From Myxococcota bacterium (GTDB taxonomy: Bacteria > Myxococcota_A > UBA796 > JAJRTE01): 59,834 nucleotides of DNA. The translations under genes were made by a program, and so were the position numbers. Positions 2,949-17,933 of the stretch are shown here, one piece after another. The DNA lies in contig JAJRTE010000053.1 of assembly GCA_024278455.1 (NCBI GenBank), positions 1 to 59,834 of the forward strand. The letters run 5' to 3'. The notes below the pieces were generated by a model that saw nothing but the letters and a program-made list of their open reading frames with translations, had not been told where the DNA came from and ran no database searches. Each line of letters begins with the position of its first letter. The stretch's first letter is position 1.

Positions 2949-3221
2949 CCGTTCCGGTCCTTCGTTGTGATGACCGGGGAACAGGTTCCCGGCCACGAGC
3001 ACCAGCATAGCAGATCCTGTCCCGGCGCGACAGGAATTGCCGAAAGCGGCACGTGCACGCCGCGGCACCCTGGCGTGCCACCGGTGTCGCCATCCGGGAC
3101 TCGATGGCTTTTCAACGACATCCGGGACACTGCGAAAAAGCTTTGGAAATGCGCTAAAGCATGGCTTCCAGTGCCCGATATCCATGGGTGAGACCAACCA
3201 CTCGTTTTCCGGGAGGTGCAG

Positions 3222-6881
<3,660 letters not shown>

Positions 6882-6977: not shown

Positions 6978-9728
6978 TCACCGGCGCGGGCGCTTGATCG
7001 CGCTTGCGCGCGCGGCGAGAACCGCCAAGGCATAGGGATGATAAGCCGAAAAGGGTTCCCCGCGGGCAAAACGCTCGAGCCCCTCGCTGGCCAGGGCCCA
7101 GTTCCGGATGGCCGTGGCCTGCCGTGCGTGCAAGGCCCGTCCCTTGCTCCGGGAGATATGGTCGGGCGACAGGTAGAGCGGTCCCAGCTCGAGGCGCAAC
7201 GTTTCGCGGCCCCTGACCTTGACCGCGGGGAGTTCCGGCCGTCCTCGAGGCGATGGGAACCAGTCCATGGTGCGCACGACGACCCCGCCTCCGCCCGAGG
7301 AGCTGATCTCCTCCCAGAGCGCCAGGGCGGCGTCTTCGTCACCCTTCCAGGTCACCTGCACCCGCCGCGAAGGAAACAGGACATCCGCTCCGCCCATCCA
7401 ACGTTCGATTTCGGCCCACTGCCAGGCTCGATCCTTGTCGAACAGGGTCCGGGTATCGGTCGCAAGGACCTGATGAGGAACCAGCCGGACATCCTCCGGG
7501 CCGCCCACCGAACGCACGTGCTGCTGCAACAGGTGCAGCGTCCTACGGGCCGCGTCATGGTCGCACAGGGCCGCGTCGCGGAGATGGCGCACCGGCACGC
7601 CCCGCTCGATGGCTCCATCCAGCGCTTCGATGGCTCGAGCCCGCGAGGCCAGCAGGGCGGTCGCGGCAGGAAGGCACTGCCGGGCCACGTAGTCCAGGTT
7701 GCCCAGGTTCCACGGAAGCAAGGCGGCGTCGATAATCAACAACCTGGCCGAAAGCCGCTCGAACGCTCCGGAAGCCTCGAGGACACCGCGAAGCCGGTCG
7801 ATCGTAGTCTCGAGCAGGTGACCGGCGAGGGGAGCCACCCCGATCGTATCGTAGATGACTCCCGGAGCACGAACGCCAAGGCGCTCGGCACAGATGTCGT
7901 CGTCCCTCCCGAGGGCGATGACGACCCGTTTCCCGAGGTGCATTTCCTCGACCATCAGCGGCAACCCGGAGTCACGGTAGTGCCGCAGGACCTCCTCGAG
8001 GTGGTCGACATGGTCCTTGCGCGTGCTCGAGGCGCTCGGGAGGATGGGAGGAGGAATGAAGACCAGCCACCTGGGGTCGACGTTCCCCTTCGCGATCAGG
8101 TCGAGAGCCACGGGGATCTGCTGCGAGCGCACCTTGACCGGGCCCAGCCACGCTGTGGTGAGCGTTCCTCCGCGGAGCAGTGGTCCGAGGTCGGGCAGCA
8201 GCGCGGCGATCCCGGGATTGCCGCTTGCACCGGGTTGGCGCGCCCCACCGTCCGCGTTGGCCGAGGTCGCCGAGGGTGCCGTCACGGGAGCTGGAGGAGA
8301 ACTCGCCGCCTGCGCCGAAGGACCCTGGTCCACATCGGGGTCCAAGCAAGGCGCGACCGGGGCGATCTCCGGCGGCGTCTCGTTGTGGGCTTCGTCGTGC
8401 ACGTCGTGATGTTCCCCGTTGTCGGCGCCGTTCGTGCCGTTGGAGACGACCTCGAGGTCCGGAGCGTCGTCAGGATAGTAGGTGTCCCGGGCGTCCACCT
8501 GGACCACCTGGCGCTCAGGGTAGCGAAGGGCTGTCAGCTTGCCGCCGAACACGCACCCCTGGTCGACGCATACCGTGTTGCCTCGAGTTTCCACCAGGGG
8601 AGTGGGCGTGTGGCCGAAAACGACCAGTGCCTTGCCATGATACGAAGCTGGCCAGTCCGTCTCGCCGCCGGGACGGTCATGGTGCCAGACGGGACGAACG
8701 GCCCCGTACACGGCGCACGCGGTGACGACTCGAGACAACCTGCCGTGCAAGTGCTCGGGCAGTCCGGCGTGAGCCACGACCAGCCGACCTTGATCCAGCA
8801 TGAGATAGGGAGGAAGGCCACGCAGCCACGCGGTGATGTCCTGGACCAGGGCCTTGCGTGCTCCAGGGTCGACAGCCTCGAGTTCGGCGACAGTCAACTC
8901 GAGCCCATGATCGATCCTGACGCGACCGCCGACCAGGTAATTCAGGAGCTTGTTGTCATGGTTGCCCAGGGTGACGAGCGCATTGCCCGCCCGTTTCATG
9001 GTCATGGCGAGTTGCAGGACCGACAGGGAATCCGGGCCACGATCCACCAGGTCGCCGACGAAGATCACGCGCCGGCCCCTCGGGTGCCGATAGCCCTGAA
9101 CCGGGTCCTTGCGATACCCGAGCTTCTCGAGCAGGTCGCGCAGTTCCTGGTAGCACCCGTGGATATCGCCGATGAGATCGTAGGGCGGCGGCACATCACA
9201 TTCCACGCGAAGGGGGCGGATGGCCACCTCGACGCCCGCCAGGCGACCATTCACGGTGACGGCCCGATTCCAGCCTTCCGCGCCGGCGCGCTCGAGCGCT
9301 TTCCGGAACCGGCGGTACTGCCGGCCACGACGCCATCGGCTCGACTGTTTCGCGCCCGAACGGCCGCGTTCCCGCGCGGGTTCGGCATCGAGGTCGATGG
9401 CTATCAAGAAGGCAGGGGCATGGTACTGTCGCGCGAGTTCGAGCATGCGGGCGCGAAACCGGGGATCGAAACCGGGTGTATCGACGACAGTGAGCCGGCC
9501 GAGCCGCGTGCGGGCCGCAACCCAGGTCTCGAGCAGGGCGAGTGCCTCGGCGCTGGCCGAATCGGCACTGGAATCGTCGGCGACCATCTCCCTGCACCGG
9601 TCCACACTCACGATGCTGCCTCGCGGGAACCACTTCCAGGCGAACTCCTTTCGGGCTGCCCCCGAGGGTCCCATCAGCACGACGAGCGCGAAGCGAGGCA
9701 CCGCAATGGTTTGCCGGGCGGGACTCAC
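6978..9728 (-). CDS. Pnkp-family RNA-repair protein; phosphatase intact, kinase and ligase motifs degenerate
   Basis: A 916-residue protein with the full layout of bacterial Pnkp (RNA end-healing and sealing): kinase (about 1-175), metallophosphatase (about 180-415), a low-complexity linker (about 430-510) and a ligase-type nucleotidyltransferase (about 525-916). The phosphatase keeps its expected metal-site motifs: GDIHGC (187-192), GDLVDRGP (225-232), GNHD (255-258), H320, H373 in GHTP and D389. The kinase P-loop, normally GPSGSGKST, reads GPSGAARKE (20-28), so the Gly-Lys-Ser/Thr triad is lost, although the DxxR pair (D43, R46) remains. In the ligase, motif I EKHMGSR reads EMHLGKR (M596 at the nucleotidylated Lys), CELMPW reads AALLPW, and EGMVVK reads GGVVVR; motif V Lys (K837) remains. 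The GTG start overlaps the upstream hen1-like stop by 4 bp, indicating translational coupling. Family is clear; loss of two activities is inferred. Confidence 0.88.
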   Translation of the reverse strand: MSPARQTIAVPRFALVVLMGPSGAARKEFAWKWFPRGSIVSVDRCREMVADDSSADSASAEALALLETWVAARTRLGRLTVVDTPGFDPRFRARMLELARQYHAPAFLIAIDLDAEPARERGRSGAKQSSRWRRGRQYRRFRKALERAGAEGWNRAVTVNGRLAGVEVAIRPLRVECDVPPPYDLIGDIHGCYQELRDLLEKLGYRKDPVQGYRHPRGRRVIFVGDLVDRGPDSLSVLQLAMTMKRAGNALVTLGNHDNKLLNYLVGGRVRIDHGLELTVAELEAVDPGARKALVQDITAWLRGLPPYLMLDQGRLVVAHAGLPEHLHGRLSRVVTACAVYGAVRPVWHHDRPGGETDWPASYHGKALVVFGHTPTPLVETRGNTVCVDQGCVFGGKLTALRYPERQVVQVDARDTYYPDDAPDLEVVSNGTNGADNGEHHDVHDEAHNETPPEIAPVAPCLDPDVDQGPSAQAASSPPAPVTAPSATSANADGGARQPGASGNPGIAALLPDLGPLLRGGTLTTAWLGPVKVRSQQIPVALDLIAKGNVDPRWLVFIPPPILPSASSTRKDHVDHLEEVLRHYRDSGLPLMVEEMHLGKRVVIALGRDDDICAERLGVRAPGVIYDTIGVAPLAGHLLETTIDRLRGVLEASGAFERLSARLLIIDAALLPWNLGNLDYVARQCLPAATALLASRARAIEALDGAIERGVPVRHLRDAALCDHDAARRTLHLLQQHVRSVGGPEDVRLVPHQVLATDTRTLFDKDRAWQWAEIERWMGGADVLFPSRRVQVTWKGDEDAALALWEEISSSGGGGVVVRTMDWFPSPRGRPELPAVKVRGRETLRLELGPLYLSPDHISRSKGRALHARQATAIRNWALASEGLERFARGEPFSAYHPYALAVLAARASAIKRPRR

Positions 9729-11119
9729 GGCTGCCCCTCCCCACGCACGAACGAAATCACGACAAACGGCGACGGCGCATGCTGCTCATCACCCAGACTC
9801 TCCACCGAAGACCGGTACCCGGCACCATCCCCTGCTGTTCGGCACACGTCCACGAGGTCGCCGGCCCGCTCCGAATCGATGCCGTTGCGCCGGCCGTTCC
9901 GATCATGCCCGCGCGCGGCGAAGGCCCGATTCGGTACCGTCATCACGACCTCGAGAGGCCGCCACTGTTCGAATAGCGGTGCCACGGCTCGAGCCACCCG
10001 TTCCGGTGGGATGTGCTCCACGACCCCGGCGAGCAGGGCCACGTCGAATCCCTCCAGGCGCGCATCCCTGTACCCAAGCGCCGACACTTGCATGGCGACG
10101 TTCGTCCGCGGGCCGCTCAAGATGTCCGAGTAGCGGCCCGACCGCTCGATCTTCCGCCTCAGCCTGTCCAGTTGCGCGAGCGACGGATCGACCACCAACA
10201 CCTCGCCGAACAAGTTCGCGCTCACCAGGTCGACGACCAGGCGCGGATCCCGCGCGCCCACGACCAGAAGGCGTGCCCCCCTCCCCTCCCGGCGCATGAA
10301 GAACTTCACCAACTCGTCGGTCCGGTAGGCCTCCGGGGTTATGCGCTGCGGCCTCGGCTCCCCGGAGGCATCGTAGCCGTCTTGCGACACTTCCGCATCC
10401 GTGCCCCGTCGCGCCCGCTGTATGAATGCGTCGATGAGACGGCGATAGAGCAGAAACCGGGATACGATGAACGGACGCTCTGGATGATCGTCCAGCCAGC
10501 CGGCACCCAGGCGGCCCAGCCGTTCGATGTCCTCCTGGGTCATGTATTCGTGGCGGTCCGAATCCATGACCAGGATCATCGCGATAACCTGGCGCAAGGC
10601 TACCTCGACCACCTGCGTGCCATGGAGCGTGATCTCGAACAGGCGCGGGCGCCTCGTGGCCAGGTCCACGTCGACGCCCGGCAATTCCCGCAAAGACACC
10701 TCGTAGCCGAGCGGCTCGAACAGGCCGAGAATGCGGTCCGTCCCCAGGTAGGTGCAAACCGGGCACAGCGCGATCTCGAGATCGTGCGCCCCACCCTGCG
10801 TGCCACCATCCGAACGCCCCCGGGCGCGATGCATGCCAAACGCCACCTCGAGCGCCGAGACGAACAGCGAGTCGATGGCGAACGCGCGGGCAGTCAGGTG
10901 CTCGTTGCGCCCCGGAGAACCCTTGGAAAACCGCCCCGCGGCCCACGGATCGGGCCAATAGATGACAGCGGCCCTGGCCACATCAGGCTGGTAGATGGGA
11001 AAGAACACACGAACCATGCTGCCGTTCACTTCCCATTCGAACAGCCGGTCCGGATTCTTGTCGAGCAGATATGAAAGCTCGCCTGCGCGCTTCCCGCGCA
11101 GCTCGAGATGCATGTACAT
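9725..11119 (-). CDS. Hen1-like protein, 3'-terminal RNA methyltransferase family, degenerate active site
   Basis: A 464-residue relative of bacterial Hen1, the RNA 3'-terminal 2'-O-methyltransferase that pairs with Pnkp and stimulates its ligase. The N-terminal Hen1-specific half is recognisable (ELSYLLDKNPDR at about 14-25; LFEPLGYEV at 133-141; TLHGT, and a DSDRHEY segment near 186-192). The C-terminal Rossmann half is damaged at key places: the SAM-binding loop, usually VLDLGCGEG, reads VVGARDP near 286-292; the metal ligand set ExxEH reads GxxEH (365-369), losing the first Glu; and the expected downstream HxxH-type ligands are replaced by a stretch rich in Asn, Arg and Gly (404-413). ATG at 11119 has GGAG five bases upstream. 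It is first in a tight operon with the Pnkp-like gene. It is probably a structural partner of the Pnkp-like protein. Confidence 0.8.
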   Translation of the reverse strand: MYMHLELRGKRAGELSYLLDKNPDRLFEWEVNGSMVRVFFPIYQPDVARAAVIYWPDPWAAGRFSKGSPGRNEHLTARAFAIDSLFVSALEVAFGMHRARGRSDGGTQGGAHDLEIALCPVCTYLGTDRILGLFEPLGYEVSLRELPGVDVDLATRRPRLFEITLHGTQVVEVALRQVIAMILVMDSDRHEYMTQEDIERLGRLGAGWLDDHPERPFIVSRFLLYRRLIDAFIQRARRGTDAEVSQDGYDASGEPRPQRITPEAYRTDELVKFFMRREGRGARLLVVGARDPRLVVDLVSANLFGEVLVVDPSLAQLDRLRRKIERSGRYSDILSGPRTNVAMQVSALGYRDARLEGFDVALLAGVVEHIPPERVARAVAPLFEQWRPLEVVMTVPNRAFAARGHDRNGRRNGIDSERAGDLVDVCRTAGDGAGYRSSVESLGDEQHAPSPFVVISFVRGEGQP

Positions 11120-11269: not shown

Positions 11270-12826
11270 CTACTCGGCCGGCCCGTCGATGGGCCCTCGA
11301 GCAGTCCTGCCACCTTCGACAATCTGGTCCAGGCGGTTCATGAGAATGATGATCTGTTGGTAGTTCGGGAAATTGACCGGCTCTCCCTTCACGACATCCA
11401 TGTGGGCGCCGATACCGCCGATGCTGGACTCGAGGGTGAAATCGGTGTCGCTCCTGCGGTCCAGGGCGACGTACCACTCGAGGGTGACACCCTCCGAGAA
11501 GTACTCCGTCACGACGGCGCGGATACGGCGCAGCCGCCCTCCATGCCGCTCGAAGACCACGCTCACCCGCTCTCCGGCGAGGGTACACTGGAAGGTGCCG
11601 TCCCTTTCCCCAGCCGTGGTCGCGAGATTCGCGATGCGGTAGAGGCGCTTCATGCGAATGTGGAGGTTGTTCGCCGAACTGGCTGGCCGGGTCGCGAGGC
11701 CGCCGAACTCCCCACCCTGTTGCGCGCGCAGCATATTCACCTGCCGATAAATGTCGGCGATGAAGGCATCGCGCTCGAGTTCGCCCGGCGACTTTTCGGC
11801 CGTGGCTGGCGCGACCGCTTCCGGGGTAGGCGACGGGACCAGACTGGGATCGGACCGGGGAGGGGGAGGCGTGCTCTTGGCCTCTCGATCGATCCCGGGC
11901 GGGATGTGCCGGTCCGGCAATCCACCATCCAGACGCTCGTCGAGCGCGTCGCCGTACTGCTCGATCGCCAGGGTGAGGACATCGCGCGCCTTGACCAGGA
12001 AGGTCTGCACGCTGGCAAGCGCGTCCATCAGGCCGGACGGGGGCGCGCCGTCGATATCGGACAGGAACGTGTTGCCTGCGGCGATGCCGGCCACGCAGGC
12101 GTCATGGAACGACTCGAGAGTCTCGTAGAGCCGGCGCAGGTCTTCCTGTCGAATGGAGGTGATGGGAACCGTCGTGCGGTCACCGGCCTTTGCCAGGGCG
12201 TCCGTGTACAGCTTCCCGCCGGTGCAATCCAGCCTGGCGCGGATAGCGTCCTCGAGCAGGTCCGCGACGGCGCGGGCGACCACCTTTTCGAGGGGGATAG
12301 CGTCGCGCGGCGGCCGCACGGTGAGCAGGACCTCGCCGCGGGCCCCGAACCGGATACGGGTCATTTCGGCCCGCTGATTGCGCAGGCGGGCCGTGAACAG
12401 TACGAGTTGCTCCAGATCGTAGAGTGCTGAGACCGTCTTGTCGAGGCGGCCGGAGCCGATGTCGTCGCGGGCACGGTCGATGGTGGCCAGCTTGTCGCCG
12501 GCCTTGGCCGGCAGGACGACCGCGGCGTGGTACAGGGCGAGCCTGCGCCTGTCCCCGGCGGCGGTGTCCGGGTTGAGAAGTGCCTCGAGGCGTCGCTCCA
12601 GGAGATTCCGCGCCTGGGACGTCTCCAGGGTTGGGGGGCCACCGGTGGAAGTGCAGGTCCTGCCCACGAGTCCCTCCGGGTCGCTGCCCGCCCAGCGAGC
12701 CCAGAATGGCTCCTGCGCCATCGAACGGGGAAGGAACCACAGCATGGTGGTACACAGCAAAGCCGCCGCCGCGCGCCACGCCACTCGAGACATCGAAATC
12801 CGCGATACGCCGTCCACTCTCAACAT
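11270..12826 (-). CDS. Exported protein of unknown function
   Basis: About 518 residues, not recognised. An N-terminal signal peptide is visible (basic stretch, then AAAALLCTTMLWFLP, then a likely cleavage after SMAQ). The middle is helical and charged, followed by a Pro/Ser-rich linker (about residues 325-350) and a C-terminal part with beta character (FQCTLAGERVSVVFERHGG). The ATG at 12826 has GAGG three bases upstream, which is tight; the ATG at 12793 gives a more compact signal peptide but has no clear ribosome site. It is transcribed leftward, and its stop lies 150 bases before the hen1-like start. Nothing links it to RNA repair beyond position. Confidence 0.7.
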   Translation of the reverse strand: MLRVDGVSRISMSRVAWRAAAALLCTTMLWFLPRSMAQEPFWARWAGSDPEGLVGRTCTSTGGPPTLETSQARNLLERRLEALLNPDTAAGDRRRLALYHAAVVLPAKAGDKLATIDRARDDIGSGRLDKTVSALYDLEQLVLFTARLRNQRAEMTRIRFGARGEVLLTVRPPRDAIPLEKVVARAVADLLEDAIRARLDCTGGKLYTDALAKAGDRTTVPITSIRQEDLRRLYETLESFHDACVAGIAAGNTFLSDIDGAPPSGLMDALASVQTFLVKARDVLTLAIEQYGDALDERLDGGLPDRHIPPGIDREAKSTPPPPRSDPSLVPSPTPEAVAPATAEKSPGELERDAFIADIYRQVNMLRAQQGGEFGGLATRPASSANNLHIRMKRLYRIANLATTAGERDGTFQCTLAGERVSVVFERHGGRLRRIRAVVTEYFSEGVTLEWYVALDRRSDTDFTLESSIGGIGAHMDVVKGEPVNFPNYQQIIILMNRLDQIVEGGRTARGPIDGPAE

Positions 12827-12860
12827 CCACCTCAACACAGCTTCAGGCTGCTACGGGCTA

Positions 12861-15533: not shown

Positions 15534-15638
15534 CGCTCGTCGCACCCGACGCGCGCAGGTCCCGCAGTCGAGGGCGATGAGCCCGTGCTCCGGCCGCCGG
15601 GATCCTGGAAACCGCGAACTGCGGAAAGGAAGTGCACG

Positions 15639-17933
15639 ATGGCGAACAAGCGTCCGCTGGTGGTAGGTGTCGACCTCGGCACGACCTATTGTTCCGTTGC
15701 CTGTATCGACCCGGGCACGGGACGGCCGGCGCTGTTGATGATAGGGGACGACTTCGACGAATACGTCCCGTCGATGGTGGCTGCTCGAGGCGACGAGATC
15801 GTGGCCGGCAAGGCGGCGGCGGACCTGTTTCTGACCGGTGACGAGGTCAACGTTGCCCGGATGTTCAAACGGGACATCGGCAGGGACAGGCCCTACCTGG
15901 GTGTCCCCGGGGGGACATTGGACGCGCAGGCGTGCACGGCGGAGCTGCTCCGGTACCTGAGAACCGGGGCGGAGGCGAACCTGCCGGACACGACGATCAC
16001 CGGCGCGGTGGTCACGGTCCCGGCCAACTTCAACTCGGCGCGGCGCAAGGCGACCCTGCAGGCCGCGGAGGCTGCCGGGCTGCCGGTCATCCGGCTCATC
16101 AACGAGCCAACCGCGGCGCTGCTCGCCCACGCGGAGATGTACAAGGACATCGACATCGACACCCCTGGCCGCTACCTGGTATTCGACTTCGGCGGGGGCA
16201 CCCTGGATGTGACCGCGGCCATCACGGGCCAGACCGGGACCGAGGACGGGACCCCCATCCAGGTCGTCAACAGCCGCGGCCGGGACGTGGGAGGCATGGA
16301 CATCGACCGGGCGCTCACCAAGGCGTTGATCGACCAGTTCAAGGACCGTCACGGGATCGATCCGACCGCCGGTCACCCGGAAGTCTACCACCAGCTCACC
16401 GCCCTGGCCGTCCGGGTCAAGGAAGGGATGTCCCGTTCCGACAAGTTCCCGGTGAGCTGGGCATGGCAGGGCAAGGCGCTCGAGTTCACCCTGTCCCGGC
16501 AACGCTATTTCGAGCTGGTCGAACGGATCCTGGACCGCGCGTTCGGGGCGGTGGAGATGGTGCTCACCGAAGAGTCCTGGTCTTTCACGGACCTCGACCG
16601 GGTGTTCCTCATCGGCGGATCGTGCCTCGTTCCCTTCGTGAGGGAGTACTTCCAGGAGCGGGTCGAAGCGGATCGCGTCTGGCTGCGTCCCCAGGACTGC
16701 CGCAAAATGGTGGCCTACGGTGCGGCGCTCACCCCTGCTCGAGTGGCCTTGGCCGGCGAGAGAGGCCTCCCTCCCGGGGCCCCGCAGCAGGAATCGTCTC
16801 TGATCACTCGAGAACCGGCACCTTACTCCATCGGCATCGTGGCCCTGGACCCGGACACCGGCCAACTCGTCAACTCCCAGATCCTCCCCCGCAAGACGCT
16901 CGTGCCGACTGAAGGGAAGTACAGCAAGACGTTCGCCACCTCGAGCGACGGACAGGACACGCTGGAGCTGGTGGTCCTCCAGGGCGAGAGCCGGAAGCCG
17001 GAGCACAACGTGCTCATCGGGCGCATCCGGTTCGAGGGCCTCACCCCCCGTCCCAAGGGCGGGACCCGGGTCAAGGTCACCATCGACTACGACCTGGATC
17101 ACAACGTGCAGGTCACCGCCGAGGAACTGGACCGGCCGGGTCACAGTGTCGCCCAGACCGTGCTCGCCGAAGGCCTCAACGCAAACCTGAAGGGTATCCT
17201 CGCCGAAATGAGCGGCCAGCTCGACCCGGCCAGGCGCGCGACCGAAACCTCCTCCCTCGACGCCGTGTTCATCTTCGATACCACCGGGAGCATGTTCCCG
17301 TGTATCAGCCGCGTCAAGGAGGCCCTCGGACAGATGCTCGACCGGCTCCAGAAGACCGTGACCGGGTTCCGCCTCGCGCTGATCGGCTACTCGGACCACG
17401 ACCAGGACGAGCCCGAGCCGTTCCTCGTCGAGGTCACCGACTTCTCCCGGGACCACCCGGCACTCCAGGGTGAAATCGCGAGGATGCGGCCCACCTACGG
17501 CGGCGACAATCCCGAGGCCGTCGAGGACGCCCTCCATGCTGCCAACGGTCTGAGCTGGTCTCCCGACTCGAAGCGCGCCATCGTACTGGTCGGAGACGCC
17601 CCGCCCCACGGGGTGGGTGCTCCGGACGACGCCTTCGAAGACGGCTGCCCCCTCGGACACGTGTGGGAGGACGAGGTCGAGGCACTCCTCGAGAAAGGCG
17701 TCGTCTTCTACACCGTCCTGGCCTACGATCGCCAGCCCGACCCGACCGCGAAACGGATCTGGCAGGCACTCGCCGACCGCAGCGGCGGCAAGTACTTCGA
17801 GCTGGACGACATCTCCGACATCGCACTGCTGCTCGAGGCCTGCGTCGCGGTTCGCGCCGGCGTCCTGGATACCTGGCTGACTACCCTTCCGGCCGAAATC
17901 CGCCAGCGCGTGGCATCGAGCGTGGCAAGCTGA
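15639..17933 (+). CDS. Hsp70-like ATPase fused to a C-terminal von Willebrand A domain
   Basis: A 764-residue fusion. Residues 1-380 form an Hsp70 nucleotide-binding domain: VDLGTTYCSV (phosphate 1), MFKRDIGRD with the catalytic-type Lys, INEPTAALL, FDFGGGTLDV (phosphate 2) and LIGGSCLVP (adenosine). About 390-515 resembles the beta-type substrate-binding domain (PYSIGIVALD, then TDEGKYSK-like and VTIDYDLDHNVQV segments). In place of the helical lid there is a vWA domain (about 538-740) starting FIFDTTGSM, a MIDAS-type metal-site motif of the DxTGS kind, with DNPEAVEDAL and IVLVGDAPPHG further on. All key ATPase residues appear present. The ATG at 15639 has AAAGGA eight bases upstream. It is the middle gene of three: 105 bases after the unknown protein, and three bases before the coiled-coil gene. 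A nucleotide-gated, metal-dependent scaffold is a reasonable inference. Confidence 0.85.
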   Translation: MANKRPLVVGVDLGTTYCSVACIDPGTGRPALLMIGDDFDEYVPSMVAARGDEIVAGKAAADLFLTGDEVNVARMFKRDIGRDRPYLGVPGGTLDAQACTAELLRYLRTGAEANLPDTTITGAVVTVPANFNSARRKATLQAAEAAGLPVIRLINEPTAALLAHAEMYKDIDIDTPGRYLVFDFGGGTLDVTAAITGQTGTEDGTPIQVVNSRGRDVGGMDIDRALTKALIDQFKDRHGIDPTAGHPEVYHQLTALAVRVKEGMSRSDKFPVSWAWQGKALEFTLSRQRYFELVERILDRAFGAVEMVLTEESWSFTDLDRVFLIGGSCLVPFVREYFQERVEADRVWLRPQDCRKMVAYGAALTPARVALAGERGLPPGAPQQESSLITREPAPYSIGIVALDPDTGQLVNSQILPRKTLVPTEGKYSKTFATSSDGQDTLELVVLQGESRKPEHNVLIGRIRFEGLTPRPKGGTRVKVTIDYDLDHNVQVTAEELDRPGHSVAQTVLAEGLNANLKGILAEMSGQLDPARRATETSSLDAVFIFDTTGSMFPCISRVKEALGQMLDRLQKTVTGFRLALIGYSDHDQDEPEPFLVEVTDFSRDHPALQGEIARMRPTYGGDNPEAVEDALHAANGLSWSPDSKRAIVLVGDAPPHGVGAPDDAFEDGCPLGHVWEDEVEALLEKGVVFYTVLAYDRQPDPTAKRIWQALADRSGGKYFELDDISDIALLLEACVAVRAGVLDTWLTTLPAEIRQRVASSVAS

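Follow-up and report, generated by a model that had tools for sequence, protein, structure and literature searches.

A Pnkp-Hen1 pair from a Myxococcota bacterium in which only the phosphatase centre appears to be kept

The 59,834-nucleotide contig JAJRTE010000053.1 (assembly GCA_024278455.1), the whole of which is called the window here, comes from a Myxococcota bacterium and carries on its reverse strand a gene of the Pnkp family of RNA repair enzymes, with a gene of the partner family Hen1 lying upstream of it. Pnkp-Hen1 has been regarded as an all-in-one machine, with four active sites acting in sequence on broken RNA. In the window pair, both of whose reading frames are open, three of the four repair activities appear to be dead: the kinase and ligase centres of Pnkp and the methyltransferase centre of Hen1 have lost catalytic residues, and the core residues of the phosphatase are all present. 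We read the pair, with a probability of roughly 0.45, as a descendant of the Pnkp-Hen1 complex that retains phosphatase activity only, which would strip 2',3'-cyclic, 2' or 3' phosphates and thereby clear broken RNA or withhold it from re-joining or sensing. No case of a Pnkp-Hen1 with such reduced catalysis was found in literature titles and abstract openings on Pnkp, Hen1 and RNA repair, which is weak evidence of absence given the poor coverage of subscription journals. The parts of the two genes are as follows.

6978..9728, (-): Pnkp-family gene, 916 amino acids, GTG start; phosphatase centre retained, those of the kinase and the ligase lost
9213..9728, (-): kinase domain (residues 1-172) with degenerate active site; AAA_33, 19/29 near-invariant columns kept
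9642..9671, (-): degenerate P-loop GPSGAARKEF (residues 20-29), from alignments to relatives
8469..9197, (-): metallophosphoesterase domain (residues 178-420), nine core residues kept; Pfam, solved chains and alignments
8193..8468, (-): extended linker (residues 421-512), longer than in aligned relatives; alignment
6981..8192, (-): PNKP ligase-like domain (residues 513-916), catalytically degenerate; PF16542 231.5 bits, 42/88 near-invariant columns kept
7926..7949, (-): ligase motif I, EEMHLGKR for E-x-KHMGSR; phmmer and alignments
7710..7736, (-): ligase motif III region, IIDAALLPW (E669A); alignments
7272..7295, (-): ligase motif IV region, GGGGVVVR (E814G, K819R); alignments
9725..11119, (-): Hen1-family gene, 464 amino acids; PF12623 117.7 bits, TIGR04074 191.9 bits
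10430..11119, (-): Hen1_L ligase-binding N-terminal domain, family match kept; PF12623 residues 1-227, 29/54 near-invariant columns kept
10235..10270, (-): degenerate S-adenosylmethionine (SAM)-binding loop LLVVGARDPRLV (D286V, C289A, G290R, G292P); alignments
10013..10027, (-): degenerate Hen1 metal motif, GVVEH for EVIEH (E365G); alignments

The stop codon of hen1 overlaps the GTG start of pnkp (junction GTGA), and the Pnkp-family protein retains the full architecture of its family, with kinase, phosphatase and ligase in that order in a single chain (Pfam AAA_33 at residues 15-124, Metallophos at 185-377 and PNKP_ligase at 541-906). It matches the solved phosphatase chain 4j6o, ligase chains 4drf and 3ty8 and kinase chain 4gp6, all of which we take to be Clostridium thermocellum Pnkp. 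Its score against TIGR04075, the bacterial Pnkp equivalog model, is 611.2 bits, below the cut-off of 750. The Hen1-family protein lies well above the cut-off of 23 for Hen1_L (PF12623) and below the cut-off of 340 for the bacterial Hen1 model TIGR04074. AlphaFold2 models of the two proteins, a structural check that the preliminary description of this gene had proposed for Pnkp, were built on 4-row alignments and reached a mean predicted local distance difference test score of 47.0 (Pnkp) and 53.2 (Hen1), too poor for any structural claim, and were left unused.

The catalytic losses in the kinase and ligase domains fall on aligned columns. Comparison by phmmer with the solved Pnkp ligase chains places EQKHMGSR over EEMHLGKR in motif I, confirming that the ligase nucleophile Lys is replaced by Met (K596M), and in MAFFT alignments with relatives the P-loop GxSGxGKS/T-F is aligned to GPSGAARKEF (G25A, K26R), motif III DAELMPW to DAALLPW (E669A) and motif IV GGEGMVVK to GGGGVVVR (E814G, K819R). 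Besides G25A and K26R, the near-invariant residues lost from the kinase include those changed by S42V, A84T, T85P, N86G and R125G. The altered P-loop, motif I, CELMPW and EGMVVK sequences that the preliminary description had reported are therefore real and in register. Among other Pnkp genes covering these regions the P-loop Lys is kept in 49/49 and the ligase Lys in 35/35, the rows of the latter count having been chosen by coverage of at least 70%, so that it is not circular; locus L087 was not entered in the motif tables. Four of four further Pnkp genes agree by motif pattern, in a check that used five phosphatase motifs rather than nine residues and in which the pattern for motif III was mis-specified and matched nothing. 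The possibility, raised at the outset, of an intact Lys elsewhere found no support: none stands at the aligned P-loop or ligase motif I column, and because the nearest, K27 (one position off) and K600 (four positions off), lie outside the aligned columns and additional catalytic residues are lost, a register-shifted nucleophile can be rejected at the level of alignment. An assembly error is unlikely given the many separate changes, the open frames and the steady G+C content at third codon positions (GC3).

In the phosphatase domain D188, H190, D226, R230, N256, H257, H320, H373 and D389, which we take to be the catalytic and metal-binding set of the enzyme family, are all kept, as they are in 52/52 other Pnkp genes covering the region, and among solved structures the domain matches the Pnkp phosphatase 4j6o best, with 221.1 bits. 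The claim that Pnkp keeps only its phosphatase centre thus holds at the sequence level.

The Hen1 partner, which had been taken as normal in the preliminary description, seems to have lost its methyltransferase site as well. Its SAM loop has changed from DLGCGEG to VVGARDP, the metal motif carries E365G, and the HxDHRFEW block, which contains the HxDH metal motif, is missing when it is aligned to relatives. The E..EH motif, which presumably binds metal, is intact in 34/34 Hen1 relatives, and EVxEH is found in 4/4 further genes. The methyltransferase centre of Hen1 consequently looks dead alongside the kinase and ligase centres of Pnkp, and the window is the only one of the rows examined to be without the P-loop Lys, the ligase Lys and the Hen1 Glu; a search for relatives with the same substitutions returned none among the Pnkp genes examined.

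Retention of near-invariant columns, defined at a threshold of 95% for the Pnkp domains and 90% for the Hen1 domains, differs between domains. The phosphatase keeps 58/72 such columns, the kinase 19/29 and the ligase 42/88 in comparison with 25 full-length Pnkp relatives (a set from which L004, L086 and all rows lacking the ligase Lys are excluded, and which is hence circular for K596 itself), and Hen1_L keeps 29/54 and the methyltransferase 20/40 in comparison with 26 relatives. Phosphatase retention exceeds that of the four other domains pooled (110/211; Fisher one-sided p = 1.2e-5). The terminal branch of the window, divided by the median of the others, is 3.6 for the phosphatase, 4.4 for the kinase, 4.7 for the ligase, 4.7 for Hen1_L and 7.2 for the methyltransferase, computed over the 25 rows common to all segments with the window and L004 excluded from the median; the full-length Pnkp tree was made by a quick method.

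These figures bear on the alternative that survives best, namely that the operon is dying: repair would have been abandoned and all domains relaxed, with the phosphatase residues surviving through unfinished loss or luck. The long branches of both proteins in every domain, including the phosphatase, are what this would predict, and so is the fact that the catalytic-loss state is shared by no examined relative. The system also appears to be dispensable, since most genomes searched are without Pnkp, which was matched in 9/71 genomes of the class at E 1e-20 and in 31/282 genomes of a phylum-wide draw at 1e-25 (the window genome being included in both), as well as in 16/57 and 6/116 genomes of two other classes at 1e-30, in genome sets that overlap. 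However, with 115 changed near-invariant sites (10+14+46+25+20) and nonsense:missense ratios of 0.0395 and 0.0365, about 4.4 stop codons would be expected without constraint, and there is none in the 1,380 codons of the two frames (916 + 464), for which the Poisson chance is about 0.01. GC3 is high, at 0.77-0.82, in every domain, and survival of nine out of nine phosphatase residues at the retention of the other domains would have a chance of 0.003, a rough figure in that these residues do not vary independently and are under more constraint than an average site. The open frames and GC3 are moderate, not strong, evidence for continued use of both proteins. The view that the intact frame and motif spacing argue against simple decay is borne out, and we regard the dying operon as an unlikely explanation.

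Other observations weigh against the pair being a functional phosphatase-only descendant of the complex. The phosphatase is the best kept of the domains, yet it is itself fast-evolving: its mean identity to relatives is 0.46, compared with 0.60 among the relatives, whose lowest mean is 0.527, and the 14 near-invariant columns that have changed out of 72 include several within residues 338-356 as well as T390Q. Its retention does not differ significantly from that of the kinase alone (19/29, p = 0.09). As Hen1_L and the ligase domain have lost about half of their near-invariant columns, the pairing of Pnkp with Hen1 may be gone. Among the Pnkp genes examined, none from a second genome showed these catalytic losses. 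Finally, a midpoint-rooted FastTree phylogeny that includes stand-alone enzymes places the window phosphatase on a long branch outside both the Pnkp and the PrpE-like sequences (17 non-full-length loci are included, and the label PrpE was assigned by hand, not by a model), while in a second tree without PrpE-like sequences the window, again on a long branch, joins the ligase-free Pnkp and another divergent group (99/94). Because the two trees place the window differently, both the proposed substrate and the placement of the phosphatase are tentative.

The last point leaves some room for a phosphatase that now hydrolyses dinucleoside polyphosphates or other nucleotides in the manner of PrpE or ApaH, the other domains serving as scaffold only. 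The model for PrpE bis(5'-nucleosyl)-tetraphosphatase, NF010148, matches residues 183-417 with 204.1 bits, and stand-alone phosphatases of Bacillota are about 35-46% identical to the domain, close to its mean of 46% to Pnkp phosphatases; the position outside both groups in one tree points the same way. The model score, however, is far below its cut-off of 340, the best solved structure is that of a Pnkp phosphatase, and the domain is still fused within a full Pnkp and coupled to Hen1, so that we consider such a change of substrate improbable. The preliminary proposal that the protein can only remove phosphates, with 2',3'-cyclic or 3' phosphates of RNA as the putative substrate, is upheld as to the phosphatase-only sequence and tentative as to the substrate, given the proximity to PrpE-like enzymes.

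The window genome is a single draft genome of 7.03 Mb in 315 contigs, with a rated completeness of 94.24%, and at that completeness no second Pnkp (two weak matches only, of 23.1 and 20.8 bits), no second Hen1_L and no RNA ligase of family PF09414 was found in it. A role of the window copy as regulator of a second, intact Pnkp or Hen1 is unlikely, none having been found at that completeness. One RtcB gene is present, and of the RNA ligase types searched for (RtcB and PF09414) it is the only other one found. In the suggestion that the protein blocks or finishes repair by others, the others cannot be another Pnkp-Hen1 of this genome, as no second copy was found in it.

Hen1_L presumably still pairs with the ligase-like domain, and both proteins presumably still bind broken RNA; the sole remaining chemistry would be the removal of 2',3'-cyclic, 2' or 3' phosphates, yielding 3'-OH ends that would not be sealable by RtcB and would be exposed to 3' exonucleases. 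The complex would then clear damaged RNA, or keep it from re-joining or sensing, instead of repairing it. RtcB joins phosphate-bearing 3' ends and needs the phosphate, so the phosphatase would counteract it. According to PMC7790460, tRNA fragments with cyclic phosphates are the signal for an RtcB repair operon in Salmonella, and the phosphatase would erase such tRNA ends. Since it would both oppose RtcB and erase the cyclic-phosphate signal, we favour clearance or withdrawal of broken RNA as its putative role. A bolder version, in which a whole repair complex has been turned into an anti-repair or RNA-clearance machine that keeps its scaffold, sheds sealing, 5' phosphorylation and methylation, and by means of its phosphatase directs cleaved RNA towards decay or conceals it from RtcB, is put forward tentatively and is rather doubtful. 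For all of these proposals we infer the phosphatase activity, the RNA substrate, the pairing of the proteins and the cellular role.

It is also conceivable, with little probability in our judgement, that binding is what matters and that the pair is a sensor, decoy or inhibitor at RNA ends, the phosphatase resetting bound RNA in competition with RtcB for 2',3'-cyclic phosphate ends. The persistence of three dead domains as open frames with family-level matches, the presence of RtcB in the same genome and the Salmonella precedent (PMC7790460) would suit such a role, but no link was found between the RtcB locus and the pnkp-hen1 locus. In L143:4438-8153 (-), the RtcB gene overlaps a gene for a tetratricopeptide repeat protein with a weak match to the glycosyltransferase family PMT_2, and neither Archease nor RtcR was found among the three proteins scanned there.

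Should the reading of the pair as a phosphatase-only descendant of Pnkp-Hen1 be correct, a natural phosphatase-only version would demonstrate that healing of the 3' end is useful in itself. It would also provide a ready-made separation-of-function protein, raise the question whether the remaining folds can still bind RNA and one another once catalysis is gone, and ask what benefit a cell that also has RtcB draws from taking away 2',3'-cyclic phosphate ends. Were it merely late decay, it would still illustrate clearly how three centres, in two genes that are coupled, can be lost in a correlated way.

In the known complex, as outlined in PMC4411300, repair involves removal of the phosphate from the 2',3'-cyclic phosphate end, addition of a methyl group to the 2'-OH by Hen1, phosphorylation of the 5' end by the kinase and sealing by the ligase, which the N-terminal domain of Hen1 activates. 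With the Pnkp-Hen1 of the Clostridium thermocellum and Anabaena type the window pair shares the overlapping hen1-pnkp order, the domain order, Hen1_L and an intact metallophosphoesterase centre; it differs in the loss of the kinase P-loop, of ligase motifs I, III and IV and of the SAM and metal sites of Hen1, in the longer linker, and in that both proteins score below the NCBIfam equivalog cut-offs. The Pnkp1-Rnl-Hen1 assembly of Capnocytophaga gingivalis similarly redistributes the same four activities over proteins, but according to PMC4411300 it has all four of them and a phosphatase from a different superfamily, whereas the window pair has a Pnkp-type phosphatase and lacks three of the activities; PF09414, a model that may or may not detect the Capnocytophaga Rnl, gave no RNA ligase match in the window genome. 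Relatives from the same phylum (e.g. L084, L085, L092, L094, L095) also combine a Pnkp phosphatase with the lack of a working ligase, but they keep the P-loop Lys and have no aligned ligase domain in their open frames, whereas the window has a ligase-family domain and neither nucleophile. PrpE-type bis(5'-nucleosyl)-tetraphosphatases belong to the same metallophosphoesterase family and show similar identity, but are stand-alone enzymes, and the window is below the cut-off of their model.

Relatives were gathered in several ways. A pattern-based scan of genome contigs, which may omit records close to the window genome, gave 63 loci, three of them full-length (L002-L004), the top full-length one being 39% identical, and the window genome was the only genome returned for its order. 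Matches to Pnkp occurred in 115 phage records, none with a single place covering more than 80% of the query (24-43% coverage among the 15 matches listed), and one viral contig matched, in the phosphatase part only; 13 of the 15 plasmid matches listed were taken in, H2 and H3 being left out. The ligase-free relatives of the same phylum (L084, L085, L092, L094, L095, L098, L107 and L081) have open frames of 424-601 amino acids with kinase and phosphatase and no aligned ligase domain, and keep the P-loop Lys. Paenibacillus eucommiae carries a very divergent Pnkp-Hen1 pair (L004:6868-9567) with the odd motifs GDVMSRGP, SNHG and GHDP, whose phosphatase adjoins a stand-alone phosphatase of Brevibacillus (L041) in one tree; the first two of these motifs had suggested the converse situation, a pair whose phosphatase is dead, but this was dropped, its nine core residues being intact.

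Around the pair in the window, same-strand genes for a GreA/GreB factor and for a 522-amino-acid protein precede hen1; the latter (11270-12838, -) has a signal-like N terminus and no Pfam or PADLOC match. PADLOC families gave no match to Pnkp, Hen1 or the adjoining gene (three proteins), and a scan of the locus for promoters and terminators gave no signal exceeding that of shuffled sequences. The pair converges with a gene on the opposite strand (3216-6881, +), whose 1221-amino-acid product has eight matches to the MopE metal-binding repeat followed by a right-handed beta helix. Farther along, 15585-17933 (+) encodes an Hsp70 (DnaK-like) protein with a C-terminal von Willebrand factor A domain. 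On plasmids, a gene pair with nucleotidyltransferase domains lies between hen1 and pnkp in Deinococcus gobiensis (L112:755-2460) and directly after pnkp in Asticcacaulis (L136:4525-6314).

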